Origin: Sphingomonas anseongensis
GTDB lineage: Bacteria > Pseudomonadota > Alphaproteobacteria > Sphingomonadales > Sphingomonadaceae
Direction: 5' to 3'
NCBI RefSeq assembly: GCF_023516495.1
Contig: NZ_JAMGBC010000001.1
Span: forward strand, 1,946,501-2,010,500
DNA: 64,000 nt
Below, in pieces: positions 11,822 to 27,011 of the stretch (the stretch's first letter is position 1; every line of letters starts with the position of its first letter). The position numbers and the translations under genes were made by a program. The notes beneath the pieces are model-generated. The model ran no database searches. It was not told the DNA's origin and worked only from the letters and a program-made list of their open reading frames with translations.

Positions 11822-13074
11822 GCCTTCTCCCTTTCCAGCTCGCGCCAGCCGATGTCGCGCCGGTGGAATCCGTCGGCGAAGTCGATCTGGTCGACGGCCC
11901 GATAGGCGCGGGCGCGCGCGCTCGCGAAACTGTGCGCGGTCGCTGTGACAGCGAGCACTCGCCCGCCCTTGGCTACGAGCCCGCTTTCTCCCTGTGCCGT
12001 GCCCGCATGGAACACGGTGACCCCCTCGACCTGCTCTGCGGCTTCGATCTCGCGAATAAGGCCGCCGCTTGCCGGGGTGCCGGGATAGCCACGCGCGGCG
12101 ACGATCACGGTCACCGCGTAATCGTCCTTGAGCCGCGGCTGGACCTCGCCGAGCCGGCCGGTCGCAACAGCATTCAGGAGCTTCGCGAAGTCGCCGTCGA
12201 CGCGCGGCATGATCGCCTCGCATTCGGGGTCGCCGAAGCGGACGTTATATTCGATCAGCTTGGGGCCGTCGGCGGTCAGCATCAGCCCGGCATAAAGAAC
12301 GCCGGAGAACGGGGTTCCCGCCGCCGCAAGCGCCCGCGCGGTCGGCCGAACGATCTCGTCCATCGCCCGGCGCTCGAGCTCGGCGGTGAGGACAGGGGCA
12401 GGGGTATAGGCGCCCATTCCGCCGGTGTTCGGGCCGGTGTCGCCCTCGCCGACGCGCTTGTGGTCCTGCGCTGAGGCGAAAGATACCGCAGTCTCGCCGT
12501 CGACCAGCGCGAACAGGCTGGCTTCCTCGCCCTCCAGGAACTCCTCGATCACCAGCGGAGAATCGCCGATCTCGCGGATCGCCTGCTCCGCCTCCTCGCG
12601 GCTGGTGGCAACGGTGACGCCTTTGCCTGCGGCGAGTCCGTCCGCCTTGATGACGACGGGCACGCCGAAGTTGGCCAGTGCCGCCAGCGCCTCGTCACCC
12701 CGTTCGGTGCGGACGTACCGTGCAGTCGGTATGTTGTTCGCCTCGCACAGGTCCTTGGTGAAACCCTTCGACCCTTCCAGCCGGGCCGCGTCGGCATTGG
12801 GGCCGAACACCGCAAAGCCGGCCTCCCGCAGCGCATCCCCGACACCGGCCACCAGCGGAGCTTCGGGGCCGATGACCACCAGGTCGATTCCCCGCTCGCT
12901 CGCCAGGCCGACCACTGCGCCGGCATCGCAGGGATCGATCGCCACGCATTGTGCCCAGCGCGCAATTCCCGGATTTCCCGGCGCCGCGACCAGTTCTTCG
13001 CAGCTCGGCGATTGCCTCAGCCGCCACGCAAGCGCATCTTCGCGCCCGCCCGAACCAAGCAGAAGAATATTCAA
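11818..13074 (-). CDS. purD: Phosphoribosylamine-glycine ligase (GAR synthetase)
   Basis: The 418-residue ATP-grasp enzyme opens with the canonical NILLLGSGGREDALAWRL and carries GPEAPLVAGVGD, KADGLAAGKGVTVA, GDTGPNTGGMGAYTPAP and VRFGDPECEAIMPR. It catalyses the second step of purine synthesis, joining glycine to 5-phosphoribosylamine with ATP. The start codon is TTG at 13074: no ATG fits the conserved N-terminus, and GGAAGGT lies 6-7 nt upstream. That Shine-Dalgarno sequence lies inside the first codons of xseA, which begins at the very next base on the other strand. Confidence 0.95.
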   Translation of the reverse strand: MNILLLGSGGREDALAWRLRQSPSCEELVAAPGNPGIARWAQCVAIDPCDAGAVVGLASERGIDLVVIGPEAPLVAGVGDALREAGFAVFGPNADAARLEGSKGFTKDLCEANNIPTARYVRTERGDEALAALANFGVPVVIKADGLAAGKGVTVATSREEAEQAIREIGDSPLVIEEFLEGEEASLFALVDGETAVSFASAQDHKRVGEGDTGPNTGGMGAYTPAPVLTAELERRAMDEIVRPTARALAAAGTPFSGVLYAGLMLTADGPKLIEYNVRFGDPECEAIMPRVDGDFAKLLNAVATGRLGEVQPRLKDDYAVTVIVAARGYPGTPASGGLIREIEAAEQVEGVTVFHAGTAQGESGLVAKGGRVLAVTATAHSFASARARAYRAVDQIDFADGFHRRDIGWRELEREKA

Positions 13075-14472
13075 GTGGACCTTCCCGAAGACACGCGCTC
13101 CGGCCTGTTAGCGAACGTGCCGCCCGGCGACAATTCGCCGGCGCTGACGGTCGGCGAGCTCGCCGGCTCACTGAAGCGGGTGATCGAGGGCGAATTCGGC
13201 CATGTCCGGGTGCGCGGCGAGATCTCCGGCTTCAAGCGCCACAGCTCCGGCCATTGCTATTTCTCGATGAAGGATGATGCGGCCTGCATCGACGCGGTCA
13301 TCTGGCGGGGCAATGCGAACGGACTCGCCTTCCAGCCCGAAGACGGCGCCGAAGTGATCGCGACCGGTAAGATGACCACCTATGCCGGCCGATCGAAATA
13401 CCAGCTGGTCATCGACCGGCTGGAGCTTGCCGGCGAAGGGGCGCTGATGGCGCTCCTCGAGCGGCGGCGCAAAGCGCTCGCTGCGGAAGGCCTGTTCGAC
13501 GAAAGCCGCAAGCGCAAGCTCCCGTTCCTTCCCAAGGTAATCGGCGTCGTCACCTCCCCCACCGGAGCAGTCATCCGCGACATTCTCCACCGGCTGGAAG
13601 ACCGCTGCCCGACGCATGTTCTCCTGTGGCCGGTGCCGGTCCAGGGCGAAGGTTCTTCCGCCAAGATCTCCGCCGCCATTCGCGGCTTCGGCGAGATCGA
13701 CGGGAACGGAGCGCTTCCCCGCCCCGACCTCCTGATCGTCGCTCGCGGCGGAGGCTCGATCGAGGATCTCTGGGCGTTCAACGAGGAGGAGGTGGTCCGC
13801 GCCGCGGCTGAATCCCCGATCCCCTTGATCTCCGCGGTCGGCCACGAGACGGACACGACCCTGATCGACCACGCATCCGACCGGCGGGCGCCGACACCAA
13901 CTGCGGCCGCCGAGATCGCGGTGCCGGTGAGGGCTGAGCTTTTCGTCCTGGTCGGCGAGCTCGGCCGGAGAAGCCAGAACTGCCTGTCGAAGATGGCGGA
14001 CCGTTCGCGCGAGCGGCTCGAGCTGACCGTCTGCCGATGGCCCGAGCCTCAGGCGCTGTTCGCGCCTGCCGCCCAGCGGCTCGACGAGGTCGGCGACCGG
14101 CTTCCGCGAGCGCTTGCCTCGCGCGCGGGCGAGGCGCGCGCGGACTTGAACGCTGTGGCGCCGAGGCTCCGGCCGGAGCTCCTCCTGGACCGTGTCAGCC
14201 GGTCGGCGGAAAAGCTCGCCTCGCTGTGGAAGATGGCGGGACTCGTTCATCCCGACCGGCCGTTGTCGCGCGGCTTCGTCCGGGTCACCGATCGCGCCGG
14301 CAAGACTTTGGCGAGCGCTGCCGACGCTATCGCCGCCAGGCTGCTCACCCTGAACTTTGGCGATGGCGCGGTCGATGCGGCCGTCGGCGAAGCAGCGCCG
14401 GCGCCCGTTGAGCGCAAGCGCCGCTCTCCCTATGTGTCTCGGCAGCCCGGGTTCTTCGACGAGCAGGAGTGA
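13075..14472 (+). CDS. xseA: Exodeoxyribonuclease VII large subunit
   Basis: The 465-residue product has an N-terminal OB-fold (residues ~22-115, with ALTVGELAGSLKRVIEGEFG and VRVRGEISGFKRHSSGHCYF) and the catalytic domain with VIGVVTSPTGAVIRDILHR, LIVARGGGSIEDLWAFNEE and GHETDTTLIDHASDRRAPTP, followed by coiled-coil helices. With XseB it degrades single-stranded DNA to oligonucleotides. The GTG at 13075 gives a sensible N-terminus (VDLPEDTRSGLL); the open frame upstream lies inside antisense purD. A DUF2093 gene follows after 3 bases. Confidence 0.93.
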   Translation: MDLPEDTRSGLLANVPPGDNSPALTVGELAGSLKRVIEGEFGHVRVRGEISGFKRHSSGHCYFSMKDDAACIDAVIWRGNANGLAFQPEDGAEVIATGKMTTYAGRSKYQLVIDRLELAGEGALMALLERRRKALAAEGLFDESRKRKLPFLPKVIGVVTSPTGAVIRDILHRLEDRCPTHVLLWPVPVQGEGSSAKISAAIRGFGEIDGNGALPRPDLLIVARGGGSIEDLWAFNEEEVVRAAAESPIPLISAVGHETDTTLIDHASDRRAPTPTAAAEIAVPVRAELFVLVGELGRRSQNCLSKMADRSRERLELTVCRWPEPQALFAPAAQRLDEVGDRLPRALASRAGEARADLNAVAPRLRPELLLDRVSRSAEKLASLWKMAGLVHPDRPLSRGFVRVTDRAGKTLASAADAIAARLLTLNFGDGAVDAAVGEAAPAPVERKRRSPYVSRQPGFFDEQE

Positions 14473-14475
14473 AAG

Positions 14476-14685
14476 ATGCTGATGACCGGCGGCGGGACGC
14501 CCGCTCGCATCCATTATATGGCCGGAACCTTCAGGATCCTCGCAAGCGGCGACCATGTCGTCTGCGCGGTGACCGGACAGCGGATTCCGCTTCACGAGCT
14601 CAAATATTGGAGCGTCGAGCGGCAGGAGCCCTATGTCGACGCCGAGGCCAGCCTGAAGGCCGAGCAGAGCGCCGGGAAAGCCTGA
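14476..14685 (+). CDS. DUF2093 domain protein
   Basis: This 69-residue protein matches the small alphaproteobacterial DUF2093 family: ARIHYMAGTFRILASGDHVV, CAVTGQRIPLHELKYWSV and a closing QEPYVDAEA. The function is unknown. The Cys in CAVTG and the compact beta-rich appearance are family features. It starts 3 bases after the xseA stop and is probably translated from the same mRNA. It is convergent with the secreted protein gene ending at 14689. Confidence 0.88.
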   Translation: MLMTGGGTPARIHYMAGTFRILASGDHVVCAVTGQRIPLHELKYWSVERQEPYVDAEASLKAEQSAGKA

Positions 14686-14688
14686 ACC

Positions 14689-15210
14689 TCAGCCGATCCG
14701 TTTGACCTTGATCCCGTTCTCGCCCGGGATAGACAGTCGGAACGATCCAAGCGCGGCGCGCTTTACGATCACCTTCTTACCCGGCCTGGGATCGAGGCCC
14801 GGCCAGTCGTCGGTCTGGCTCCATACGGACCCGTCGGCCAGCGTGATGACCCATCCGCCGTCGGCATTGTGCCCGGTGCTCTTCACGGTGCTTTCGATCT
14901 GAGTGATCTCGTCTTCGCCGCCGCCGAACAGCCCGCCGAAATTGGGGATCGAAAATCCGAACAGGGAACGGCCCGCGGCCCGAGCCTTCTCCTTGTCGAC
15001 GAACACAAGGTTCCTGCTCGCGATCGCGGCGTCCATCGCCGTCGCTTCGCGGTCGAAGCAGGCGAGTCGCTGGTCAGCTGCCGCGATCGCCCGGCAGTCC
15101 ATCAGCCGTTTCACCTGCGCCGGGGTGCCGAGCTGGACGGGCTTGGCGGCCTGGACGGTTCCTGCAACGGCCAGCGCGCAGACGCCGGCCATGATCGTGA
15201 AATTGCGCAT
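14689..15210 (-). CDS. Secreted protein of unknown function
   Basis: The 173-residue protein has a clear Sec signal peptide (residues 1-21, ending VQAA). The mature part includes LMDCRAIAAADQRLACFDRE, with two cysteines that could form a disulfide, a Phe/Gly-rich patch (RSLFGFSIPNFGGLFGGG), and a beta-rich C-terminal half with VWSQTDDWPGLDPRPGKKV. This layout recurs in sphingomonad periplasmic proteins of unknown role. GAGGGA precedes the ATG. It is divergent from the TonB receptor across 229 bases. Confidence 0.75.
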   Translation of the reverse strand: MRNFTIMAGVCALAVAGTVQAAKPVQLGTPAQVKRLMDCRAIAAADQRLACFDREATAMDAAIASRNLVFVDKEKARAAGRSLFGFSIPNFGGLFGGGEDEITQIESTVKSTGHNADGGWVITLADGSVWSQTDDWPGLDPRPGKKVIVKRAALGSFRLSIPGENGIKVKRIG

Positions 15211-15439
15211 GAAATCCCTCGCTGCTTCCCGGGCGCAACACTAGGCCGCAGGTGCCGAAATCGGCAAGACTGGCGCTGTTGCAAATTTGATACAGCGCAT
15301 TGACAACTGCATTGGAAGCACCCGCCAGCCGTTGCCAGCGCCTTGCAGCTTCTCTTATCAGACAGTGCAGTTCGGCAATTTCGCATTGCCGCACCATGTC
15401 GGTCGTGCCGTTAGCGCGACCTTTAAGGGGATGGATTTT

Positions 15440-18400
15440 ATGAAGCTCGAATTCCGTCAGCGTCTTCTTGCAACGACGCTTCTCGTCGGCGCCAGCACGG
15501 TCGCCGCTCCGGCTTTTGCCCAGGACACCAATCCGAACACGAACCCGCCGGACACGAGCGCGGTTCCGACGGCTCCGCAAACCACGGCTCCGGTCGAGGG
15601 TGCGCCGGTTCCGAGCACTTCGGCAACGGGTGAGACGGTCAAGTCGAGCCAGGACATCATCGTTACCGGTTCGCGCATTCCGCAGCCGAACCTTGAGTCC
15701 ACCAGCCCGGTGACGGTCGTCACGAGCCAGGACGTCAAGCTTTCCGGTACCAGCCGTACTGAGGATCTCGTCAACTCGCTCCCGCAGGTGTTCGCGAGCC
15801 AGGGCTCGAACATCTCGAACGGATCGAGCGGAACGGCGACGATCGATCTTCGCGGCCTCGGCTCGAAGCGCAACCTCGTCCTCGTCAACGGCAAGCGCCT
15901 GCAGGCGGGTGACACCGGCAACCCGGTCGCGGACATCAACTTCGTCCCCTCGCAGCTGGTCAAGCGCGTCGACGTGCTGACCGGCGGTGCATCGTCGGTT
16001 TACGGTGCCGACGCCGTCGCGGGTGTCGTCAACTTCATCATGGACACGACCTTCACCGGCCTTCGCATCGACGGCCAGGCGAGCGCGTTCAACCACCACA
16101 ATCACATGGACGACACTCTTCTGGTCCCGAACGAGGTCCGTGGCTTCCTTCCGCCGCGCGGCTGGAGCACCAACGGCGGCGCCCAGGACATCGCCGGAAT
16201 GTTCGGCGCAGCGTTCGACGACGGCCGCGGCCACGTCATGGCCTATGCAACCTATCGCGCCCAGGATCCGGTTCTCGAATCCACCCGCGACTATTCCTTC
16301 TGCACCCTCGCAGCCCGAGCGACCCGCCAGAGCGGCTCGCCGGCCCGCGACTGGAATTGCGGCGGTTCGGCGACGTCGTCGACCGGCACGTTCCTGCAGT
16401 ATGATCCGAACACGTTCGCGAACATCGACGTGTTCCAGGTCAACGGAAACCAGTTTGTTCCCGGCACGACACCGTTCAACTTCGCGCCGTACAACTACTT
16501 CCAGCGCCCTGACGAGCGCTACAACTTCGGTGCGTTCGGCGACTACGAGATCAGCCCGGCCTTCAAGCCTTATGTCGAGCTGATGTTCATGGACGATCAC
16601 TCGGATGCGCAGATCGCGCCGTCGGGTGACTTCGGCAACACCAACCGGCTCGCCTGCGACAACGCGCTTCTGTCTGCGCAGCAGATCAATCGCCTCTGCG
16701 CTGAGGGTCGTACGTTCGTCGACTCGCTCAACGGCCAGGCCGGCGTCGAGCAGACCTACACCTACATCCTTCGCCGTAACGTCGAAGGCGGCGGCCGTGA
16801 TGACGATATTCGTCATACCGACTACCGCATCGTCGCCGGCATGCGCGGCGACGCGGCCCGTGGCATCTCCTACGATGCTTACTATCAGACGGGTCACACG
16901 CTTCGCCAGGAAACCTACCTCAACGACTTCTCGGTCACTCGTCTTGGACGAGCGATCGACGCCGTTGCGGTCCTCGGCGGCGCCATCGTTGCTCCGGGTA
17001 CCCCGGGCGCAACGATCATGTGCCGCGCTGCCTTCACCGGCATCGACCCGAACTGCGTACCTTACAACATCTTCGCGACGGGCGGCGTTACTCCGGATGC
17101 TCTGAGCTACCTCCAGACCCCGGGCTTCCAGCGCGGCAACATCGTGGAGAATATCGCTCACGTCGACGTCACGGTCGCCGGTGACGAATATGGGATGCGT
17201 CTGCCTTGGGCGGAAACCGGGATCGGCCTCAACATCGGCGCCGAGTACCGCAAGGAAAGCCTGGACTTTAAGGTGGACGAAGAGTTCCGGACCGGCGACC
17301 TCGCCGGCCAGGGCGGCCCGACCCCACCGGTCAAAGGAGAGTTCGACGTTCGCGACCTGTTCGCCGAAATCCAGATCCCGATCATCGAGCATAACTTCAT
17401 CGAAGAGTTCAAGATCGGGGCCGGCTATCGCTACTCGAACTATCACGTCGGCGGAAACAGCTTCAACACCGACACGTACAAGATCGAGGCCGATCTCGCC
17501 CCGATCCGCGACGTCCGGTTCCGCGGCAGCTACAACCGCGCTGTTCGCGCACCGAACATCGTCGAGCTGTTCTTCCCGCAGGCGCTTGGTCTGTCGGGCG
17601 AGCTCGATCCGTGCGCAAACGCTGTTGGTGGTGGCGCCCCGAGCGCAACGCTTGCTCAGTGCCAGCTCTCAGGCGTGACCCCGGCTCAGTACGGTAACAT
17701 CACGCCGAACCCGGCTAACCAGTACCAGGGCCTGTTCGGCGGTAACCCGGACCTCGCGCCGGAAACTGCCGATACCTGGACTTTGGGCGCGGTAGTCCAG
17801 CCGCGGTTCATTCCGGGCCTCGCGCTGACCGCTGACTACTTCAACATCAAGGTGAAGGACATCATCGGCACGCTCGGCTTCGACCAGGTGCTGAACGGCT
17901 GCATGGGCACCGGCGGCATTCCGCAGGATCCCACGCTGTGCGCGTTCGTCCATCGCAACCCGAACAACGGGTCTCTGTGGCTCGGAACGAACTCGTATGT
18001 CATCCTGACGAACGTCAACCAGAGTGGCGTCGGCCTGAAGACGGACGGCTGGGACTTCAACGGCACCTACTCGCGCCGTCTCGGCGGCTGGGGAACGGCC
18101 AACATCGCCTTCGTTGGCACGCTGCTCAACCAGCTCGAGAACCCGCATGTCGGCATCAACTGCGTCGGCAAGTTCGCGGGTGCCTGCGGCACGCCGACCC
18201 CGAAATGGCGTCACGTGCTGCGCGTCGGCCTGACCATGCCGAGCGGCCTGGGCGTGTCGACTCGCTGGAGGCACTTCTCCGGCGTCGATGCGGTCGCGGC
18301 TGCCGGCCCGGCTGAAGAGCGGCTGAGCTCCAGGGATTACTTCGACCTGACGCTCACTGCTCGCCTGGCGCAGAGGCTCAACCTCCGCGTTGGTGCGAAC

Positions 18401-18532
18401 AACATCTTCGATACCGATCCGCCGCTTGGTGGTGGCAACATCCCGGCCGGCTTCGGCAACGGCAATACCTTCCCGCAGGTCTATGATGCCTTGGGACGGT
18501 ACATTTTCGCCGGCTTCACCGTCGACTTCTAA
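15440..18532 (+). CDS. TonB-dependent receptor
   Basis: The 1030-residue protein has a signal peptide (residues 1-28, cleaved after APAFA), a Pro/Thr-rich spacer, the TonB-box-like SQDIIVTGSRIPQPN, a plug domain with LVNSLPQVFASQGSNISNG, VLVNGKRLQAG and GASSVYGADAVAGVVNFI, and a large beta barrel ending in the aromatic FAGFTVDF. It should transport a scarce large ligand across the outer membrane using TonB-ExbBD energy; the ligand is not evident. AAGGGG precedes the ATG; an in-frame ATG lies 9 bases upstream. A strong terminator follows. Confidence 0.95.
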   Translation: MKLEFRQRLLATTLLVGASTVAAPAFAQDTNPNTNPPDTSAVPTAPQTTAPVEGAPVPSTSATGETVKSSQDIIVTGSRIPQPNLESTSPVTVVTSQDVKLSGTSRTEDLVNSLPQVFASQGSNISNGSSGTATIDLRGLGSKRNLVLVNGKRLQAGDTGNPVADINFVPSQLVKRVDVLTGGASSVYGADAVAGVVNFIMDTTFTGLRIDGQASAFNHHNHMDDTLLVPNEVRGFLPPRGWSTNGGAQDIAGMFGAAFDDGRGHVMAYATYRAQDPVLESTRDYSFCTLAARATRQSGSPARDWNCGGSATSSTGTFLQYDPNTFANIDVFQVNGNQFVPGTTPFNFAPYNYFQRPDERYNFGAFGDYEISPAFKPYVELMFMDDHSDAQIAPSGDFGNTNRLACDNALLSAQQINRLCAEGRTFVDSLNGQAGVEQTYTYILRRNVEGGGRDDDIRHTDYRIVAGMRGDAARGISYDAYYQTGHTLRQETYLNDFSVTRLGRAIDAVAVLGGAIVAPGTPGATIMCRAAFTGIDPNCVPYNIFATGGVTPDALSYLQTPGFQRGNIVENIAHVDVTVAGDEYGMRLPWAETGIGLNIGAEYRKESLDFKVDEEFRTGDLAGQGGPTPPVKGEFDVRDLFAEIQIPIIEHNFIEEFKIGAGYRYSNYHVGGNSFNTDTYKIEADLAPIRDVRFRGSYNRAVRAPNIVELFFPQALGLSGELDPCANAVGGGAPSATLAQCQLSGVTPAQYGNITPNPANQYQGLFGGNPDLAPETADTWTLGAVVQPRFIPGLALTADYFNIKVKDIIGTLGFDQVLNGCMGTGGIPQDPTLCAFVHRNPNNGSLWLGTNSYVILTNVNQSGVGLKTDGWDFNGTYSRRLGGWGTANIAFVGTLLNQLENPHVGINCVGKFAGACGTPTPKWRHVLRVGLTMPSGLGVSTRWRHFSGVDAVAAAGPAEERLSSRDYFDLTLTARLAQRLNLRVGANNIFDTDPPLGGGNIPAGFGNGNTFPQVYDALGRYIFAGFTVDF

Positions 18533-18555
18533 GTCGCGGAAAGTATGAAAAGATT

Positions 18556-18591
18556 GCGGCGGGCCTCGAAAGAGGTCCGCCGCTTTCTTTT
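18556..18591 (+). terminator. Rho-independent terminator of the TonB receptor gene
   Basis: Twelve paired bases (GCGGCGGGCCTC with GAGGTCCGCCGC, one G-U pair) close a perfect GAAA tetraloop and are followed by TTTCTTTT. This is the clearest intrinsic terminator in the window and separates the receptor transcript from the dioxygenase genes downstream. Confidence 0.92.
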
Positions 18592-18636
18592 GTCCCTACC
18601 GTTGCTTTTCGCTCCCCACTGCGCTGACTTGCGCTG

Positions 18637-19788
18637 GTGAGCGAAACACCCTCCGACATCGAGGCTGAGGCCGACCGGGCGGCAGCTTCCGGCGACCTCG
18701 CCCGGGCAATTAGCTTGCTGGACCGGCTAAGCTCGACCGCGGAGCCGAGCCTCGCTCTGTGGACCAAGCTTGGCGCGATGAGGCGCGCGACGGGCGACAT
18801 CAAAGGCGCGCTTCACGCGATCGAGAAGGCCCTGGCCCTCGCGCCGCTCGATTTCTCTGCGCTCCTTGCTCGAGCGATGCTTCTCGACAGGCTCAAGGAT
18901 CCTGGCGCCGGCGAAGCTTTCTCCAACGCCATCGCCCGGCTTCCGGCCGAGGAGAATATCCCCGAAGCGATGGCTGCGGCCGTCGCCCACGCAAGAATGC
19001 GCGCGGATCAGCACAGAGCCGGAATCGAAGAGCGGCTCGTAAGAGCCATCCCGTCGGGGCTCGACCGGTCCCATGAGCAACGCCTGTCCCGCTTTGCTTC
19101 CAATGTATCGCGCCGAACCCGCCACCATCACCAGGAGCCTTCGGATTTCCATTATCCCGGCCTCCCCGAGATCGAGTTCCACGATCCCGCTCACTTTCCC
19201 GAGCTCGCCGCGCTTGAAGCCGCCACGGACGCGATTCGCTCCGAATTCGAAGCCCTGATCGCCGCCGAAGCGGCGGAGATGGTACCCTACATCCACTATC
19301 CCGAACGCGTGCCGCTGCGGCAGTGGAAGGAGCTCAACAACAACCGCGACTGGACGGCGATCCACCTGCTTCGAAACGGCAGCGCCGTGGAGGGCAACGC
19401 CAGGCATTGCCCGCAGACGATGGCCGCGGTCGCGAAGCTGCCGCAGCCGCACGTACCGGGTGCCTCGCCCAATGCGATGTTCTCGCTACTTGCTCCGCGC
19501 ACGCGCATTCCTCCGCACACGGGGGTCGCGAACACCCGGCTCGTCTGTCACCTGCCGCTGATCGTTCCGCCCGATTGCGGCTTTCGTTGCGGAGCAACCA
19601 CCCGGCAGTGGGTGGTCGGCGAAACCTTCGTGTTCGACGACACCATCGAGCATGAGGCGTGGAACGACAGCGGCGAGCTTCGGGTCGTCCTGATCGTCGA
19701 CCTGTGGCCGCCCGCACTCGACGCCGTCGAACGCGAAGCCGTCGCAAGGATGATCGCCGCGACGGGCGTCAGCTTCACGGGTGCCTGA
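18637..19788 (+). CDS. TPR protein with aspartyl/asparaginyl beta-hydroxylase domain
   Basis: Residues ~1-150 are helical repeats of TPR type (LARAISLLDRLSS, ALWTKLGAMRRATGDIKGAL, ALHAIEKALALAPLDFSALL). Residues ~190-375 form an AspH-like iron/2-oxoglutarate dioxygenase: iron ligands H294 (PPHTGVANTRLVCHLPL) and H339 (FDDTIEHEAWN), with R301 and R349 as likely 2-oxoglutarate contacts. AspH enzymes lack the usual carboxylate iron ligand, as here. The start is GTG at 18637. Its last codons overlap the next dioxygenase gene by 8 nt. The substrate is unknown. Confidence 0.88.
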   Translation: MSETPSDIEAEADRAAASGDLARAISLLDRLSSTAEPSLALWTKLGAMRRATGDIKGALHAIEKALALAPLDFSALLARAMLLDRLKDPGAGEAFSNAIARLPAEENIPEAMAAAVAHARMRADQHRAGIEERLVRAIPSGLDRSHEQRLSRFASNVSRRTRHHHQEPSDFHYPGLPEIEFHDPAHFPELAALEAATDAIRSEFEALIAAEAAEMVPYIHYPERVPLRQWKELNNNRDWTAIHLLRNGSAVEGNARHCPQTMAAVAKLPQPHVPGASPNAMFSLLAPRTRIPPHTGVANTRLVCHLPLIVPPDCGFRCGATTRQWVVGETFVFDDTIEHEAWNDSGELRVVLIVDLWPPALDAVEREAVARMIAATGVSFTGA

Positions 19789-20713
19789 GGTGCCGGCACC
19801 CGTGCAAAACGACCCGTCGGTGCAGCTCGAGCAGGGTCTGGCCTTGCTGGGCGGTGAGACGGCGTCGGCCGACGGCCCGAAAGCAATTGCACTTATCGAT
19901 ACGGCCGCGGCAAATGGCCATCCCGATGCGCTGGTGATGTCGGCCCTCTTCGAGGCCATGGGCGCGCTTAGGCCTCAGAACTGGCCTGCTGCCATGCGAA
20001 AACTCCGGCGGGCGGCTGAGCTGGGGTCGGAAAGCGCGCGCGGGCAAGTGCAAGTGCTCGAGGAGCGCGGTTCCGTCGATCTCTCGATCGACCGGCTGCT
20101 CGCTCCGCCGCCCAAGAAGCAGCTTCACGACAGCCCACGCATAGTCGCCTATCCCGGCTTTGCGGCCGAAGCCGAATGCGCATGGATCATCGGTCGCGCG
20201 CGCGACCGTCTGAAGCCGGCGAAGGTCTTCGCCACGTCTACAGGCGACCAGACTCACAATCCCGCGCGCGACAACAAGGCCATCGAATTCCAGCTCCCCG
20301 ACATGGACTTGGTGGTGGAGGTGCTGCGCGCCCGAATCTCCGCCGCCACCAGGTTGCCGGTAGCGATTTTCGAGCCGACGCAGATCCTGCACTATTCGGT
20401 TGGCGAGCAATTCCGGCCGCACCACGACTTCCTCGATCCGGAGATTCCCGGCTTTGCGGAGCACCTGAAGAAGTTCGGGCAGCGCATCGCTACCGTCCTC
20501 ATCTACCTGAACGACGGTTACGAGGGCGGCGAGACGGTGTTTCCGAAGCTTGGCATCAACCATCGCGCGGCCGCGGGCGATGCGCTGTTCTTCACTAATG
20601 TCGACCGCTCCGGCCGCGGAGACCCGTTGACGATGCATGCCGGATCTCCTCCGACGTCCGGCGAAAAGTGGGTCTTCTCGCAGTGGATCCGTGACCGGCT
20701 GCCGGCTCAATAG
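19781..20713 (+). CDS. 2OG-Fe(II) oxygenase, prolyl 4-hydroxylase type, with helical-repeat N-terminus
   Basis: The 310-residue protein has an N-terminal ~90-residue helical region resembling Sel1/TPR repeats (ALIDTAAANGHPDALVMSAL, MRKLRRAAELGSESARGQV) and a P4Hc dioxygenase domain. Iron ligands are H214 and D216 (FRPHHDFLD) and H286 (LTMHAGSPP), and K296 (GEKWVFSQW) should bind 2-oxoglutarate; LIYLNDGYEGGETVFP is characteristic. The GTG start overlaps the preceding gene by 8 nt, so translation is likely coupled. It is the second of three neighbouring dioxygenases of different subfamilies. Confidence 0.9.
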   Translation: MPEVPAPVQNDPSVQLEQGLALLGGETASADGPKAIALIDTAAANGHPDALVMSALFEAMGALRPQNWPAAMRKLRRAAELGSESARGQVQVLEERGSVDLSIDRLLAPPPKKQLHDSPRIVAYPGFAAEAECAWIIGRARDRLKPAKVFATSTGDQTHNPARDNKAIEFQLPDMDLVVEVLRARISAATRLPVAIFEPTQILHYSVGEQFRPHHDFLDPEIPGFAEHLKKFGQRIATVLIYLNDGYEGGETVFPKLGINHRAAAGDALFFTNVDRSGRGDPLTMHAGSPPTSGEKWVFSQWIRDRLPAQ

Positions 20714-20773
20714 CCGCCGCCTGCCGCCCGCGAAGTTGCTGCGCTCAGCCGACGACTTGTCTATGACCCCGCC

Positions 20774-22261
20774 ATGGCAAGCCCGGCGCCCCTGAACACC
20801 GTCGCGTTCGAGGACGCGATCGCCGCTTTTGAGTCGGGGCAGCGCGAGCAGCTTCTTGCGCCGCTAGGGGCAGCCGTTTCCGCTGGAAGCCCGGACCCCA
20901 GATTGTGGCACCTTCATGGGCTTGTGCTTCGCGATCTCGAACGAAGAGAGGATGCGCTTCCCTCGCTTCGGAAGGCGGCGCAGATGGCGCCGACATCGGC
21001 CAAGATCGCCCACTCGCTCGCCCGGACGCTCTACGAGGCTGGGCTGCCATCGATCGACGCTTACGGCCAGGCGCTGAGGCTCGCTCCCGGCGACACCGAA
21101 ATCGTCGCAGGCCTCACCTCCGCCTTTGTCGCCGACGGAGAACCGCAGACGGCGATCTCGGGCCTCGAACGTATCGTGTCGCGCTCCCCACATTGGGTTG
21201 TTGGGCACATTCTCCTGTCGAAGCTGCGTTGGGCGCAGGGTGACCGCGATGACTTCACACGGAGCTTCGCCGACGCCATCCGGCAAACACCGCAGAATCT
21301 CGACCTTTGGCACCAGTGGATCATCGCACTGACTCACGCGGAGCGTTGGGAGCAGGTGCTCGAGGTGATCGGAAACGGCCGCGCTGCGCTCGGCGAGCAG
21401 GGCGTGTTCAGCATAAGCGAAGCCATCGTTTATGCCGAGCGGGGCGAGACGGAGAAGGCGGAGGCGCACTTCGCTCCTTTCGCCGATCTGCAAGACGGAA
21501 CGGTCCAGGTCAGGCGGGTCCGCCACTACCTGCGCTCCGGCCGGCCCGAGGAGGCCGACCGGATCATCAGCGAGTGGACGCGCAAACCCGACGCCTTCAT
21601 GTTCTGGCCCTACGCTTCGATTGCGTGGCGGATGCTCGGCGACCCTCGGTGGGACTGGCTCGAGGGCGACGCGCGCTTCGTCGGAGTCTACGACATCGCC
21701 GATCGCCTGCCGCCACTCGACCAGCTGGCGGAGACGATGCGCAAGCTGCACACTTTGAGCGGGCAGCCGCTAGAACAATCGCTTCGCGGCGGGACACAGA
21801 CAGACGGCGACATCTTCCTTCACATCGACCCGGTGCTGATCCAGCTTCGGGAGGCGATCAGGGCCACCGTCGCCGAGCACGTTGCCAAGCTCCCGGCACG
21901 TGACGAATCGCACCCGCTCCTCGGGCCGCCGCGAGAGCAGATCCGCTTTTCCGGGGCCTGGTCCGTCTGGCTTCGCGAGCGCGGTTTCCATGCCAACCAT
22001 GTCCATCCGGCAGGCTGGATCAGTTCGGCGTTGTACATCGTGCTTCCGCCGGACCTGGGTGAGGAAGGGGCGGGCTATCTCACCCTCGGCGACTCTACGT
22101 CGTCGACGCTCGATGTCGGGCTTCCGCCGTTTCGCACCGTGGAGCCAAAGCCCGGCCGGCTGGCCCTCTTCCCGTCCTACATGTGGCACGGGACTCGTCC
22201 TTTCGGTAAAGGAGAGCGGATCACGGTTGCGTTTGACGTCGCCGTACCGAGCGGAAACTAG
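20774..22261 (+). CDS. TPR protein with putative 2OG-Fe(II) oxygenase domain (TIGR02466-like)
   Basis: Residues ~10-310 consist of TPR-like helices (LWHLHGLVLRDLERREDALP, AYGQALRLAPGDTEIVAGL, YAERGETEKAEAHF). The C-terminal ~170 residues match the putative 2OG-FeII_Oxy_5 type: NHVHPAGWISSALYIVLP (H409, H411), the distal H472 in FPSYMWHGTRPF and R482 in GERITVAFDV. The 495-residue length is typical of fused TPR forms. It follows the prolyl-hydroxylase-type gene by 60 bases in the same orientation. The substrate is unknown, and the TPR part may recruit a protein target. Confidence 0.87.
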   Translation: MASPAPLNTVAFEDAIAAFESGQREQLLAPLGAAVSAGSPDPRLWHLHGLVLRDLERREDALPSLRKAAQMAPTSAKIAHSLARTLYEAGLPSIDAYGQALRLAPGDTEIVAGLTSAFVADGEPQTAISGLERIVSRSPHWVVGHILLSKLRWAQGDRDDFTRSFADAIRQTPQNLDLWHQWIIALTHAERWEQVLEVIGNGRAALGEQGVFSISEAIVYAERGETEKAEAHFAPFADLQDGTVQVRRVRHYLRSGRPEEADRIISEWTRKPDAFMFWPYASIAWRMLGDPRWDWLEGDARFVGVYDIADRLPPLDQLAETMRKLHTLSGQPLEQSLRGGTQTDGDIFLHIDPVLIQLREAIRATVAEHVAKLPARDESHPLLGPPREQIRFSGAWSVWLRERGFHANHVHPAGWISSALYIVLPPDLGEEGAGYLTLGDSTSSTLDVGLPPFRTVEPKPGRLALFPSYMWHGTRPFGKGERITVAFDVAVPSGN

Positions 22262-22325
22262 TTGCGGGGGAAAGTTGCCCGCATCGCGGATTTGACGTAC
22301 GATGGGCGCGAAGGTGAGGGTGAAA

Positions 22326-22601
22326 ATGTCGAAGCTTTTGTATGTAGTTGGAGCCAGCCTGGTCCTGTCAGCTCCAGCTTTTGCGCAGACCGCGGCCGAG
22401 CCGCAGGCAGTTCCCGTAATGCTTCCGCCGGCCAAGTCGGACGTGAACAAGATCATCTGCGAGCGGCAGGAAGAGATGGGTTCGAGGCTCAAGGGCAAGA
22501 AGGTCTGCATGACCCTTGAGCAATGGCAGCAGTATCGCGCGGAGAACCGCGAAAAGACGGAGCGGCTGCAGGGAAGCGCCGGAACCCGCCCGTCGGGCTA
22601 A
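22326..22601 (+). CDS. Small secreted two-cysteine protein (paralog 1)
   Basis: The 91-residue product has a signal peptide (residues 1-20, ending APAFA), a Pro/Ala spacer and a conserved core from DVNKIICERQEEMGSRL to KGKKVCMTLEQW, with C45 and C61 as the only mature cysteines. This CERQEE..GSRLKGKKVC core recurs in small sphingomonad proteins of unknown function. The ATG at 22326 is preferred over 22302 because it begins directly at the signal peptide. The next gene is a clear paralog, and both follow the dioxygenase genes in the same direction. Confidence 0.78.
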   Translation: MSKLLYVVGASLVLSAPAFAQTAAEPQAVPVMLPPAKSDVNKIICERQEEMGSRLKGKKVCMTLEQWQQYRAENREKTERLQGSAGTRPSG

Positions 22602-22643
22602 GTGCCGGCGCGCGGGTCCTTTGAGAGCGGGAGGCCAAAAATC

Positions 22644-22916
22644 ATGCTCAAAGTTTCGATTCTCGGTCTGGCAATGACCGCTCTGGTGGGCTCGCCGGCC
22701 TTCTCGCAGGCGACGCCGCATTCGGCCGCCGTGACGATCCCGCCCAATCAGACCGACGTGAACAAGATCGTCTGCGAGCGGCAGGAAGAGATCGGGTCGC
22801 GCCTCAAGGGCAAGAAAGTCTGCCTGACCGTCGAGGAATGGAAGGTGTTCAAGAACCAGAGCCGCGACGACGTCGAAGAGATGCAGCGCCACGCGAACAC
22901 GGCGCGAAGCAACTGA
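22644..22916 (+). CDS. Small secreted two-cysteine protein (paralog 2)
   Basis: The 90-residue protein has a signal peptide (residues 1-22, ending SPAFS) and repeats the core of its neighbour: DVNKIVCERQEEIGSRLKGK followed by KVCLTVEEW, with C44 and C60. GGGAGG sits about 10 nt upstream of the ATG. Cores differ at only a few positions while signal peptides and tails have diverged, so this is an old tandem duplication. The stop lies directly against the stop of the convergent TPR-sulfotransferase gene, with no bases between them. Confidence 0.78.
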   Translation: MLKVSILGLAMTALVGSPAFSQATPHSAAVTIPPNQTDVNKIVCERQEEIGSRLKGKKVCLTVEEWKVFKNQSRDDVEEMQRHANTARSN

Positions 22917-24368
22917 TCATTCCCGCCCGGTGAGTTCCCCGAGCGCTCGCTCAAGCTGATCGCGATAATGTTTCCAGCGGCCGCTTGAGCGTGCGTGAAG
23001 CGGCTCGCGCACCTGCCAGACACTCGCCGTCTTCACGGTGCCGGCCCGCCGGTGGAAGTGGAGCAAATCGTCCTCCCAATCCAGGCCCAGGAAGCTGAGC
23101 AGCCCCTTCAGAACCGGCTCGGGCTCGCGCACCAGCAAATCGTAATCGACGTCGAAAATGTCGTCCGGATAGAGGGTCTTCCAATGCGCCATCAGCCGCT
23201 CGTGCTGGTCGTACCAATGGGCTGAGTCGTCGAGATCCAGTCCGTATGGCATCGCCGGGCCAAGGTGCAGGAAGTGAAGCGAGATAAGGTTGTCCAGCTG
23301 GTGGCGGCGCGTGTGGACGATTTTGGCGTCAGGAAACAGCGTCTTGATCAGCCCGATGTGAAGGAAATTGTCGGGCCGCTTGTCGGTCACCAGCGCCTGC
23401 CCCCGTCGGTAAGGTGCCAGCCCGTCGAGATAGAAACGGCGCCACGATTCAAGCTCGGCCCCATCCGGATTCGAGGCCGCTTCGGGATAGCCCGCAATCC
23501 TGCCGGGAAGTGCAGGAATCAGGTCGAGCTCCCCTCCGCTAACGATCGCGCTGTGGCCGCCGAGGATCTGCTCGACCAGCGTCGAGCCCGACCTGAACAT
23601 CCCGCAGATGAACACCGCCGGAGCGGGCTCACCATCGCGGGCAACCGGTTTCGAAAAGGCGCTGATCAGGCGGTCGACCAACGCTTTCTGTGCTGCGCGA
23701 TCATAGGGCCTGAAACCCCGTCCAAATGCTTCTCGGCTGGCAAGGTTCGCCGCCTCTGCTGCTGCAAACGCTTTGTCATATTCGCCCTGTGCGTCGAGCA
23801 GCCGGGCAAGCGCAAAGCCAAGGTCGGCGCGTGCGGCGGGCTCGCGAGTCGCGGCAATCTCGCCCTCCAGCCGCCCGATCAGCCGGTCCGCCGAATCGCC
23901 CTTCGGCTCGACGATTCCGGCCAGCCGCGCGAGCGCGAGCGGATGGTTCGGCGCAACCGCAAGCGCGCGCTCATATGTCGCCCGCGCGGCGGCCCTGTCG
24001 CCTCGGTCCTCGTGCAAGTTGCCAAGGTTGAGCAGCGCGGGGACATAGACCTCGTTAATCGCAAGCGCCGCCTTCAGCTCGGCCTCCGCTTCCGCCGGGC
24101 GAGCCAGATGGTCCGACAGGATCACCGCACGATTGAGGTGCACCTCTTCGGGCCCGCGAACGCCCCGCTTCAGGGCTTCAGCATAGGAATGAAGCGCAAG
24201 CTCGTACTGCCGCGCCTGCCGCTGCAGCCAACCCAGGTTGTACCAGCTATCCGCAAGGTCTGGCTCGCGCTTCAGAAGGTCGGAATAAGCGGCGATCGCC
24301 TCTTCGACCCGGCCGGCTCGCCGAAGCTCGGCCGCTTGTTCCAGAAGTGCCGCGCTTTCAGCGTCCAT
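22917..24368 (-). CDS. TPR-containing sulfotransferase family protein
   Basis: Residues ~1-150 are TPR units (LADSWYNLGWLQRQARQYEL, YVPALLNLGNLHEDRGD, ARATYERALAVAPNHPLAL). Residues ~250-475 are a PAPS-dependent sulfotransferase domain with the 5'-phosphosulfate loop CGMFRSGST at 255-263 and the segment AKIVHTRRHQLDNLISLHFL that reads like the 3'-phosphate-binding region. The eukaryotic relative closest in layout is tyrosylprotein sulfotransferase, but the acceptor here is unknown. It converges on the dioxygenase/small-protein genes and lies 39 bases downstream of the clpB stop on the same strand. Confidence 0.9.
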   Translation of the reverse strand: MDAESAALLEQAAELRRAGRVEEAIAAYSDLLKREPDLADSWYNLGWLQRQARQYELALHSYAEALKRGVRGPEEVHLNRAVILSDHLARPAEAEAELKAALAINEVYVPALLNLGNLHEDRGDRAAARATYERALAVAPNHPLALARLAGIVEPKGDSADRLIGRLEGEIAATREPAARADLGFALARLLDAQGEYDKAFAAAEAANLASREAFGRGFRPYDRAAQKALVDRLISAFSKPVARDGEPAPAVFICGMFRSGSTLVEQILGGHSAIVSGGELDLIPALPGRIAGYPEAASNPDGAELESWRRFYLDGLAPYRRGQALVTDKRPDNFLHIGLIKTLFPDAKIVHTRRHQLDNLISLHFLHLGPAMPYGLDLDDSAHWYDQHERLMAHWKTLYPDDIFDVDYDLLVREPEPVLKGLLSFLGLDWEDDLLHFHRRAGTVKTASVWQVREPLHARSSGRWKHYRDQLERALGELTGRE

Positions 24369-24407
24369 CCGCGCTGCGTAGCTGTGGCCGGGAACGGCTG
24401 TCGAGCA

Positions 24408-27011
24408 TTACTCGGCGGCCTGGCGAACCTCGCCCACCGGCTCGAGCACCAGCTGCCCGTCGCCCTCGTCAGCGCGGACCGTGTCGCCGTCCTTGATCTT
24501 TCCGGAGAGGATGGCGTCGGCGAGCGGGTCCTGGAGGTATTTCTGGACCGCGCGCTTGAGCGGCCTCGCGCCGTAGACTGGGTCGTAGCCGACCCGCCCC
24601 AGCCATTCGCGCGCCTTGGGCGTCAGCTCGAGCGTGATCTTGCGGTCATCCAGCAGCTTCTGGAGCCGTCCGACCTGGATATCGACGATCGGGCCCATGT
24701 GCGCGGCGCCGAGCCGGTGGAAGAGGATGATCTCGTCCAACCGGTTGAGAAATTCCGGGCGGAAGTGGGCGCGAACGACCTCCATCACCTGCGGCTCGAC
24801 CTTCTCGACCGGCTCGTCCTCGCCCAGGTTGGCGAGGAATTGCGACCCCAGGTTCGAAGTCAGGATGATCAGAGTGTTCGTGAAGTCGACGGTTCGGCCC
24901 TGGCCGTCGGTCAGACGCCCATCGTCCAGTACCTGCAGAAGGATGTTGAACACGTCGCCATGTGCCTTCTCGACCTCGTCGAACAGCACGACCTGGTATG
25001 GCCGGCGGCGTACCGCCTCGGTCAGAACCCCGCCTTCCTCATAGCCGACATAGCCGGGAGGAGCGCCGATCAGCCGCGCGACTGCGTGCTTCTCCATGAA
25101 CTCGCTCATGTCGATGCGCACCATCGCCGACGAATCGTCGAACAAGAACTCAGCGAGCGCCTTGGTCAGCTCGGTCTTGCCGACCCCGGTGGGGCCGAGG
25201 AACAGGAAGGAGCCGAGCGGCCGGTTGGGGTCCTGGAGTCCGGCGCGGGCGCGGCGGACGGCGGCGGAAACAGCTTTCACCGCATCGTCCTGGCCGATGA
25301 CCCGGGCGCCGATCGCCGCTTCCATCTGCATCAGCTTGTCGCGCTCGCCTTCCATCATCCGCTCGACGGGGATCCCGGTCCAGCGGCTGACGACCCCGGC
25401 GATGTCCTGGTCTGTCACTTCCTCGCGGAGCATTGCGCCCTTGGTGACCGCCTGCGCTTCGCTCAGCTGCTTTTCGAGCTCGGGAATCCTGCCGTATTGA
25501 AGCTCGCCGGCTTTCGCGAGGTCGCCATTCCGTTGCGCCTGCTCGAGCTCCAGACGAGCCTGGTCCAGTTGCTCCTTCACCTTCGCTTCGCCCGCGATCT
25601 TGTCCTTCTCCGCCTGCCAACGCTGGGTCAGCTCGGCCGACTGCTGCTCGAGATTGGCGAGCTCCTCCTCGAGCTTCGCGAGCCGGTCCTTCGACGCCCG
25701 GTCCTGCTCCCTCTTCAGCGCTTCGCGCTCGATCTTCAGCTGAATGATCCGACGGTCGAGATTCTCGATCTCCTCGGGTTTCGATTCGACCTCCATCCGT
25801 ATCCGGCTCGCAGCCTCGTCCATCAGATCGATCGCCTTGTCGGGAAGGAACCGGTCGGAGATGTAGCGATTCGAAAGGGTTGCGGCCGCAACGATAGCGG
25901 CGTCCGTGATCCTCACCCCGTGGTGGAGTTCGTACTTCTCTTTGAGGCCGCGGAGGATGGAGATGGTGTCGGGCACTGTCGGCTCGCCGACGAACACCGG
26001 CTGGAATCGCCGCTCCAGCGCCGCGTCCTTCTCGATATGCTTTCGATATTCGTCGAGCGTGGTCGCACCGATCACGTGGAGCTCGCCGCGCGACAGCGCG
26101 GGCTTGAGCAAATTGCCGGCGTCCATCGCGCCTTCGCTCTTCCCCGCGCCAACCAGCGTGTGCATCTCGTCGATGAACAGGATGATGTTGCCTTCGGACT
26201 GCTTCACCTCGTCGATGACGCCCTTCAGCCGTTCCTCGAACTCCCCGCGATATTTCGCGCCTGCGATCAGCGAGCCCATGTCCAGCGACAGCAGCCGCCG
26301 GTCCTTGATCCCGTCGGGAACGTCGCCGTTCGCAATCCGCACAGCGAGGCCTTCGGCGATCGCGGTCTTGCCGACGCCGGGCTCGCCGATGAGCACTGGA
26401 TTGTTCTTGGTCCGGCGGGCAAGCACCTGCACCGTCCGCCGGATCTCCTCGTCGCGGCCAATGACCGGGTCGAGCTTGCCCTGGCGGGCAGCTTCGGTGA
26501 GGTCGCGCGTGTAGCGCTTGAGCGCATCGTAGCGGTCTTCGGAGCTCTGTGTGTCGGCGGTCCGTCCGCCGCGAAGCTTCTCGATGGCTGCATTGAGCGT
26601 TTGGGGCTTCAACCCCGCACGCTCTAGCGCAGTCCCGACGTCGGTGCCCTTGGCGAGCGCCATCGCCAGCAGGATCCGCTCGACGGTCACATACTGGTCG
26701 CCTGACTTCTTCGCGACCTGCTCGGCCTGGTCGAGAATGCGGATGGTATTGCCGTCGAGCGCAGGGGCGGAGGTGGCGCCGCTGCCGGTCACGGCCGGCT
26801 CTTTCGCTACGAGTGCGTCGACTTCGCGCCGGGCCGTCTTCGAGTCGCCGCCGGCAGCCTCGATCAACCCGGCGGCCATGCCCTGCTCGTCGTCGAGCAG
26901 CGCCTTGAGGAGATGGGCCGGCGCAATCCGCTGGTGATGCTCGCGGACCGCGATCGTCTGCGCGGCCTGGAGGAAGCCACGGGCGCGGTCGGTCAGCTTT
27001 TCAAAGTCCAT
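24408..27011 (-). CDS. clpB: ATP-dependent chaperone ClpB
   Basis: The 867-residue disaggregase has an N-terminal repeat domain ([18 protein letters not shown]), a first AAA+ domain with [13 protein letters not shown], a long coiled-coil middle domain (about residues 400-530, rich in Glu/Lys/Gln), and a second AAA+ domain with [20 protein letters not shown] and [20 protein letters not shown]. It extracts polypeptides from aggregates together with DnaK. AAGGGGG lies 6-7 nt before the ATG. A dyad and a possible heat-shock promoter lie just upstream. Confidence 0.98.

Follow-up and report, generated by a model that had tools for sequence, protein, structure and literature searches.

A recurrent gene cluster of repeat-fused 2-oxoglutarate oxygenases and a TPR-sulfotransferase beside a TonB-dependent receptor in Sphingomonas anseongensis, a candidate system for protein tailoring

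The stretch of Sphingomonas anseongensis DNA analysed here, called the window, is 64 kb long, and the coordinates of the cluster genes within it were confirmed. A gene on the plus strand (15440..18532) encodes a TonB-dependent receptor (TBDR) of ~1030 amino acids with a plug (PF07715) and a barrel (PF00593) domain and a signal peptide recognised by inspection. In the gap between this gene and the first enzyme gene lies a terminator-like hairpin on the plus strand (18556..18592), with a 12-bp stem at 18556-18583 and a T-rich tail, as expected from the preliminary description, which had placed a TonB receptor upstream behind its own terminator. The same kind of hairpin follows the receptor at 45 of 66 receptor-to-enzyme/small-protein junctions, compared with 0 of 87 enzyme-to-enzyme/small-protein junctions.

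Downstream of the hairpin, three adjacent oxygenase genes had been described as each joining a repeat region to a distinct 2-oxoglutarate (2OG) oxygenase subfamily with intact iron ligands. The Pfam scan, which covered seven window proteins, bore out the three subfamilies (PF05118, PF13640 and PF13759), and all of the named ligands are present. The TPR-AspH gene (18637..19788, plus strand, GTG start) encodes a TPR region followed by an aspartyl/asparaginyl beta-hydroxylase domain (PF05118, 141.6 bits). The TPR matches ahead of this domain were all under the Pfam cut-offs; the family profile aligns with human AspH across TPR plus oxygenase (best E 9.6e-47). H294 and H339 are kept in 15/15 aligned homologs, and the predicted metal site consists of two His and no carboxylate ligand, the same as in human AspH, with Gly at the carboxylate place and a common His-x-Gly motif. 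In the alignment, the human metal/2OG residues S668, H679, H690, H725 and R735 are retained in the window enzyme and in 15/15 homologs. Human AspH is an enzyme of the ER that acts on disulfide-bonded EGF domains. Unlike the human enzyme, TPR-AspH has no signal peptide, and human Q627, located near the substrate Asp, and R688 are replaced by Ala241 and Val303 (alignment, numbering by our own count). These replacements make an EGF-type substrate unlikely, and no EGF domain was detected by Pfam in the seven window proteins scanned. The AspH domain also matches two lipid hydroxylases, OlsC at 86.5 bits and LpxO at 48.7 bits, both under cut-offs.

The second oxygenase gene (19781..20713, plus strand), with a called GTG start that gives an 8 nt overlap with the AspH gene, encodes a Sel1-like region and a prolyl-4-hydroxylase-type domain (PF13640, 50.3 bits). 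Among solved relatives, the protein matches collagen P4H alpha-2 with an E-value of 7.7e-26. Its helical part gave no Pfam match; a Sel1-repeat protein of solved structure, however, aligns with residues 8-98 (E 1.1e-6), so the label 'Sel1-like' holds. H214, D216 and H286 are present in the window protein and in the one homolog that was aligned. The third gene (20774..22261, plus strand) encodes TPRs above cut-offs and a TIGR02466-like oxygenase domain (PF13759, 68.4 bits), of which the putative iron ligands H409, H411 and H472 are found in 60/60 homologs. The predicted structure of this enzyme has a mean pLDDT of 94.8. With this model, the ten lowest E-values in Foldseek all belonged to human AspH, at TM-scores of 0.28-0.36 and an rmsd of 13-15 Å; the low scores and large deviations indicate a shared domain make-up and not a shared arrangement.

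Two small genes follow on the plus strand, at 22326..22601 (ORF open from 22302) and 22644..22916 (ORF open from 22602); the starts at 22326 and 22644 are likely ones, chosen as Met codons. As described before, the pair appears duplicated, with 46% identity and a common CERQEE.GSRLKGKKVC core. Each protein consists of a Sec-type signal peptide (by inspection), a conserved core predicted to fold as beta-beta-alpha, and a variable tail; in protein 1, C45 sits on one of the two predicted strands and C61 on the other. A structure search against the PDB returned nothing at E <0.001 (best 1.8). Facing these genes, a convergent gene on the minus strand (22917..24368) encodes a TPR-sulfotransferase (PF13469, 141.8 bits). 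Its F253-L264 stretch, which we take to be the 5'-PAPS loop, is intact, in line with the earlier reading: F253, G256, R259, S260, G261, T263 and L264 are kept in 16-18 of 18 homologs. Residues 239-445 match protein-tyrosine sulfotransferase 2 (TPST2; E 5.8e-10). Like TPST2, the domain has the loop; unlike TPST2, the window protein carries a TPR arm outside the match, and its similarity to a polyketide-synthase sulfotransferase is nearly level (E 1.2e-9). By inspection, export signals were recognised on the receptor and both small proteins, and all four enzymes lack a signal peptide.

To describe the neighbourhood in other genomes, 80 named loci from alpha- and gammaproteobacteria were used, retrieved through the TPR-AspH family only. 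Up to 4 kb from TPR-AspH, a TBDR of the same class occurs in 61/80 loci (59/80 within 3 kb), a TPR-PF13759 oxygenase in 51/80, a TPR-sulfotransferase in 48/80, a small two-cysteine gene in 31/80 and a prolyl-hydroxylase type in 7/80. A single one-strand gene order is seen in 18/80. Starting from the other side, a TBDR was found within 3 kb of 40/60 TPR-PF13759 loci compared with 2.7% of 260 control points, and the same-class receptor appeared once in 20 control stretches. A small gene lies within 5 kb of 16/34 strong TPR-AspH genes, where ~0.35% would be expected, both models having been built partly from such loci. Linkage of the cluster is thus above chance. The preliminary description had named a lack of co-occurrence beyond this strain as a result that would speak against it; this objection fails, as AspH loci with TBDR, PF13759 enzyme and sulfotransferase were found in other bacteria. 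Some enzyme loci have no labelled neighbour at all (19/60 for PF13759, 8/80 for AspH).

Our data are best explained, tentatively, by repeat-armed (TPR or Sel1) enzymes of the cytoplasm that modify the adjacent receptor, with or without its small partner, before export. Lacking signal peptides, the four enzymes should act in the cytoplasm, and the receptor and the small proteins are exported. The repeat arms would grip the unfolded, still reduced protein encoded next door, and the AspH-, P4H- and PF13759-type domains would use Fe(II), O2 and 2-oxoglutarate to hydroxylate it. Sulfate from PAPS would be added to the same protein by the sulfotransferase, and the modified protein would then be exported, its altered residues possibly tuning the binding of ligand or partner by the receptor. 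We infer here the protein substrate, its identity and the physiological role of the module. Support comes from the repeated tight linkage, the conserved active sites, the gene content and the terminator-like site between receptor and enzymes. The solved relatives of the enzymes include human AspH, collagen P4H and TPST2, all with protein substrates, and the TPR domain of human AspH helps to bind the substrate (PMC13168262). On these grounds, the earlier suggestion of a hydroxylation-plus-sulfation system gains a widely conserved enzyme set tied to a TBDR and small proteins, with protein-modifying enzymes among its relatives. Against protein tailoring stand the near-equal similarity of the sulfotransferase to the polyketide-synthase type, the lipid-hydroxylase likeness of the AspH domain, the enzyme loci without neighbours and the occurrence of a receptor loop motif in receptors without nearby enzymes.

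This loop, Y[DN]CxGxxGxxCGxPxPxWR, contains the Cys pair C909 and C917, which is present in 83% of 132 linked receptors compared with 0/15 unlinked ones among the fetched loci; the strict pattern occurs in 56/147 receptors. The 15 unlinked receptors probably belong to another class. As an enzyme-specific target, the loop was rejected: it is also carried by the plasmid receptors L248, L249 and L250, which are of the same class and have no labelled enzymes in the ~5 to 7 kb of flank checked, so it looks like a feature of the receptor class, although it may still be a site of modification. Tyr makes up 3.9% of the receptor residues.

That only the small two-cysteine proteins serve as substrates, in a modified exported peptide system, we regard as distinctly improbable. 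Their linkage to TPR-AspH genes given above would fit, as would the tandem copies, found in the window and in L042, L036, L135 and L070. An Asp-Pro immediately before Cys1 is likewise more frequent in linked than in unlinked copies (39/73 vs 7/29; nominal p 0.008, relatedness uncorrected), with a weak trend for a C-terminal Asn (25/73 vs 5/29, p 0.099). The residues to be modified are less convincing: the two-cysteine loop has no conserved Asp/Asn (24/73 linked and 10/29 unlinked copies), a Tyr after Cys1 occurs in 13/73 linked proteins, and small protein 2 contains zero Tyr. Moreover, 49/80 AspH loci have no small gene within 4 kb, and a pattern scan for hidden ones in the 46 enzyme loci that lack a small gene at any distance gave only frames judged spurious. 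The family occupies 118 places in 80/119 genomes, and at 25/40 fetched small-protein loci away from PF13759 no labelled partner lies within 3 kb. The earlier proposal that these proteins carry +16 and +80 Da modifications is weakened accordingly. In L098, L108, L110, L111 and L119, the small gene directly follows a same-strand receptor, and labelled enzymes are absent within 3 kb (in L110 a TPR-sulfotransferase is found 4.7 kb further on); this marks the small protein as a partner of the receptor. A resemblance of the GSR core to a TonB box was seen, but mimicry was rejected since linked copies show no enrichment of GSR (38/73 vs 13/29). No protease was found by Pfam among the seven window proteins scanned.

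It is also conceivable, though we think it unlikely, that the enzymes make, decorate or degrade a small molecule taken up through the receptor, such as a siderophore. For CciT-CciO of Caulobacter crescentus, PiuA-PiuC and Fiu-YbiX, it has been published that the genes for a TBDR and a 2OG oxygenase lie together in different species, and metabolism of imported substrates has been proposed; in CciT-CciO-type pairs, the three top-ranked neighbours include a Sel1-repeat gene, seen in <25% of genomes (PMC12004943). Methanobactin operons, which have a small genetically encoded product, often contain TBDR genes, and two Methylocystis operons contain a sulfotransferase (PMC3621798). The window cluster shares the TBDR-oxygenase neighbourhood with the former and the combination of TBDR, sulfotransferase and small encoded product with the latter. 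Compared by gene content, it is unlike CciT-CciO and PiuA-PiuC: a TPR-sulfotransferase and small two-cysteine proteins are combined with as many as three oxygenases, each repeat-fused and of its own subfamily, whereas those systems have a single PiuC-type oxygenase and are not known to include fused repeats, TPR or a sulfotransferase. Unlike methanobactin, the window small proteins have Sec-type signal peptides and the predicted beta-beta-alpha core, and neither an MbnB/MbnC-type match nor an MbnA core peptide was found among the seven window proteins scanned. Nor did the scan of these proteins reveal a peptide synthetase, a core-peptide gene or an exporter. Furthermore, all four enzymes bear a repeat arm, TPR in the sulfotransferase and two of the oxygenases and Sel1-like in the third oxygenase, and such arms are unusual for small-molecule enzymes. 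Very unlikely, in our view, is a lipid or surface-glycan modification in which the oxygenases act on acyl chains, the sulfotransferase acts on lipid or glycan, and the receptor is a mere neighbour. The OlsC and LpxO matches point in that direction; the family profile, however, spans both TPR and oxygenase of human AspH, with His-x-Gly in common, and the receptor linkage is frequent, if partly due to shared synteny.

No earlier description of the gene cluster was found in the open-access PMC literature; the nearest systems on record are methanobactin operons and the pairs of a TBDR with a lone oxygenase (CciT-CciO, PiuA-PiuC). The pairing of TBDRs with lone 2OG oxygenases (PiuC, YbiX, CciO) is an open puzzle, and a recurrent cassette beside one receptor class narrows it to few proteins that are open to mass spectrometry. 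To our knowledge, an outer-membrane receptor that is hydroxylated or sulfated would be new. More speculatively, and with considerable doubt, receptor-linked tailoring might be a bacterial cytoplasmic counterpart of the Asp/Asn and Pro hydroxylation and the sulfation of the animal secretory pathway, acting on a TBDR and a small periplasmic partner. TPR arms would choose the substrate, and the enzyme set would be exchanged from lineage to lineage, which would leave every receptor with a chemical decoration of its own.

The neighbourhood extends to the far side of the receptor. A gene on the minus strand, divergent from the receptor (14689..15210), encodes a flanking secreted protein with 40% identity to a member of family c2 that adjoins the receptor in locus L034. 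The family has members in 22 fetched loci, by a clustering made without the window copy. Judged by this similarity, the flanking protein is part of the conserved neighbourhood.

The receptor gene of the window (15440-18532, +), assigned like the four enzyme genes from reading frames and domains, encodes a TonB-dependent receptor (TBDR). It is followed by a terminator-like hairpin (18556-18583) and, on the same strand, by genes for a TPR-AspH enzyme (aspartyl/asparaginyl beta-hydroxylase type; 18637-19788), a Sel1-like prolyl-4-hydroxylase-type (P4H-type) oxygenase (19781-20713), a TPR-PF13759 oxygenase (20774-22261) and two small secreted two-cysteine proteins, at 22326-22601 and at 22644-22916. 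A TPR-sulfotransferase gene (22917-24368, -) is convergent with these. By inspection, the receptor and both small proteins carry signal peptides and the four enzymes do not. Next to the sulfotransferase gene lies clpB (24408-27011, -), with 81% identity to a protein annotated ClpB in the fetched locus L257. A secreted protein is encoded divergently from the receptor (14689-15210, -); it gave only a weak TIGR03360 match and is 40% identical to a receptor-adjacent protein in L034, whose family is present in 22 fetched loci. A search for sigma-70-like promoters found none in 14600-24500. The stretch 12949-27011 extends from the xseA/M23-peptidase side to clpB and seems to be a chromosomal location for receptor-plus-enzyme cassettes whose make-up varies across related genomes (L034, L042, L257); in L257 this location holds a pair of TBDRs and a further 2OG oxygenase. 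The genome of the window also has two adjacent TPR-sulfotransferase genes at another place (L095:7958-11445).

The putative iron ligands, described as intact in the preliminary description, are conserved among aligned homologs: H294/H339 of AspH in 15/15, H409/H411/H472 of PF13759 in 60/60, and the P4H triad in the sole P4H homolog of the set (n = 1). The AspH profile (58-380) aligns across the TPR and oxygenase regions of human AspH (best E 9.6e-47). In this alignment, numbered by count, S283, H294, G296, H305, H339 and R349 of the window enzyme correspond to human S668, H679, G681, H690, H725 and R735, and human Q627 and R688 are replaced by A241 and V303. Residue roles follow PMC13168262, where the 2OG arginine is printed as R736. 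Collagen P4H alpha-2 is closest to the P4H-type enzyme (E 7.7e-26), residues 8-98 of which match Sel1. Among sulfotransferases, TPST2 is closest to the window enzyme (5.8e-10), with a PKS sulfotransferase nearly equal (1.2e-9); for its TPR arm, OGT and designed TPRs score above the sulfotransferase matches. The predicted model of the PF13759 protein (mean pLDDT 94.8) was compared by Foldseek, and the ten lowest E-values (4e-10 to 2e-9) were all human AspH structures, at 11-12% identity, TM-scores of 0.28-0.36 and rmsd of 13-15 Å. Judged from this model, the two proteins share a TPR-plus-oxygenase make-up with no close superposition.

With the PF13759 protein alone as query, some match was obtained in 84 of 119 genomes of the family, and 64 matches exceeded 100 bits by our own count. 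Of the 63 outside the window, 60 were fetched, some stopping at contig ends and one being a 3.7-kb contig. A TBDR lies within 3 kb of PF13759 in 40/60 loci; other partners at this distance are the small protein (11), TPR-sulfotransferase (10), AspH (4), P4H and c18, a family clustered from the fetched loci (1 each), and 19/60 loci have no labelled partner. A small control of 20 offset 20-kb stretches gave one TBDR and one TPR-sulfotransferase with the same models, and at 260 pseudo-anchor points these were near in 2.7% and 3.8%, respectively. Since clpB often adjoins PF13759 loci, synteny shared along the chromosome accounts for part of the adjacency. The genes present and their order vary nonetheless, and the set is also seen without clpB in the fetched stretch (e.g. 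L034, L035, L046). Strong PF13759 homologs are rare across the class (7/240 genomes at E 1e-40); of five outside the family, two have, by coordinates, a TBDR of this class (threshold E 1e-60) within about 2 kb.

One scan with a TPR-AspH alignment yielded at least 80 named loci. They represent one AspH subfamily, because the alignment was seeded with loci in which a receptor or small protein was already close by; a few genomes repeat those of the PF13759 set (e.g. L173/L062, L180/L041, L219/L049). Among the 80 matches listed, a TBDR lies no more than 4 kb from the best-scoring AspH in 61 and within 3 kb in 59. Within 4 kb, again among the matches listed, were PF13759 (51), TPR-sulfotransferase (48), small protein (31), c18 (8) and P4H (7), with no labelled partner in 8/80. 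The linkage of oxygenase and TPR-sulfotransferase proposed in the preliminary description thus recurs beyond this strain. Among the matches listed, the one-strand order TBDR, sulfotransferase, AspH, PF13759, small protein occurs in 18/80 loci and the complete window set in 3/80 (L168, L213, L228). Judged by stop-to-stop frames, which frequently overlap, the genes appear tightly packed. By record titles, the listed loci come from Sphingomonas, Novosphingobium, Sphingopyxis, Sphingobium, Caulobacter, Phenylobacterium, Nitrospirillum, Nevskia, Povalibacter and others. TBDR-PF13759-AspH is also present on a Pseudoalteromonas replicon (L256). Paired TPR-AspH genes, mostly divergent and often by a TBDR, were seen in several records that are beta- or gammaproteobacterial or unclassified (L223, L226, L227, L229, L230, L233, L240, L243 and L244). 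L244, titled as a Klebsiella pneumoniae MAG, has a paired AspH-TBDR locus as in other proteobacterial MAGs and is perhaps a misbinned contig.

The terminator noted behind the receptor is recurrent at receptor genes, with enzymes behind them or not. A hairpin with a T-run, mostly starting 15-40 nt past the receptor stop, was found at 45/66 receptor-to-enzyme/small-protein junctions, 40/84 other receptor ends, 0/87 enzyme-to-enzyme/small-protein junctions and 2/233 other enzyme ends, a few loci being counted twice; mononucleotide shuffles gave 0 to 1 per group. Near the receptor C-terminus, a Y[DN]C-x7-CGxPxPxWR loop is conserved in cluster receptors and in L248, L249 and L250, and occurs with and without enzymes nearby.

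The small-protein family occupies 118 places in 80/119 genomes. Forty fetched loci away from PF13759 have, within 3 kb, TBDR (13), c18 (9), AspH (8) and sulfotransferase (2), and 25 have no labelled partner. The small protein lies within 5 kb of 16/34 strong and 1/23 weaker AspH genes (about 0.35% expected), the two models being partly built from loci where both occur. It looks like a receptor partner, since in five loci (L098, L108, L110, L111, L119) its gene directly follows the receptor and labelled enzymes are absent from the 3 kb around it; in L110, a TPR-sulfotransferase follows at 4.7 kb. Its predicted fold (mean pLDDT 74.6; above 90 for residues 41-80) consists of a beta hairpin, whose two strands bear C45 and C61, and then a helix. 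We compared 73 linked copies with 29 unlinked ones, merging identical copies and dropping those without the core pattern. Ignoring relatedness, linked copies more often had Asp-Pro before the first cysteine (39/73 vs 7/29, p 0.008) and Asn at -4 (27/73 vs 2/29, p 0.003); Asp/Asn inside the loop between the cysteines did not differ (24/73 vs 10/29, p 1). These counts would be compatible with a hydroxylation site before the first cysteine rather than within the loop. The small proteins had also been put forward as sulfation targets; Tyr occurs in only 13/73 linked vs 10/29 unlinked copies (p 0.11, relatedness ignored), which speaks against tyrosine sulfation as a general modification of the small protein. 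A C-terminal Asn is frequent among linked copies (25/73), and the GSR core is similar to VTGSR in the receptor's TonB-box region.

Taken together, the gene linkage, the conservation of active sites, the repeat arms and the relatives that modify proteins favour the modification of an exported protein encoded in the same cluster, without singling out a target. The main rival is that the cluster enzymes metabolize the ligand, as PMC12004943 proposes for PiuC, an oxygenase paired with the TBDR PiuA. A table in PMC10040529 places lasso-peptide, sulfotransferase and aspartyl beta-hydroxylase genes of related bacteria under neighbouring cluster numbers, which hints that enzymes of this kind can act on peptides. 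The open-access literature searched yielded no description of the cluster.

Family c18 (about 350 aa), not labelled in the window, gave no Pfam or PDB match and no meaningful NCBIfam match. A segment like FHSAFCCSTLLAR is read as a putative sulfotransferase-like P-loop. Among its 26 strong matches, 19 have AspH or the small protein within 5 kb, the model being built from such loci. In many Sphingomonadaceae, c18 neighbours AspH and the small protein (L114, L115, L121, L124, L135, L112, L036 and others).
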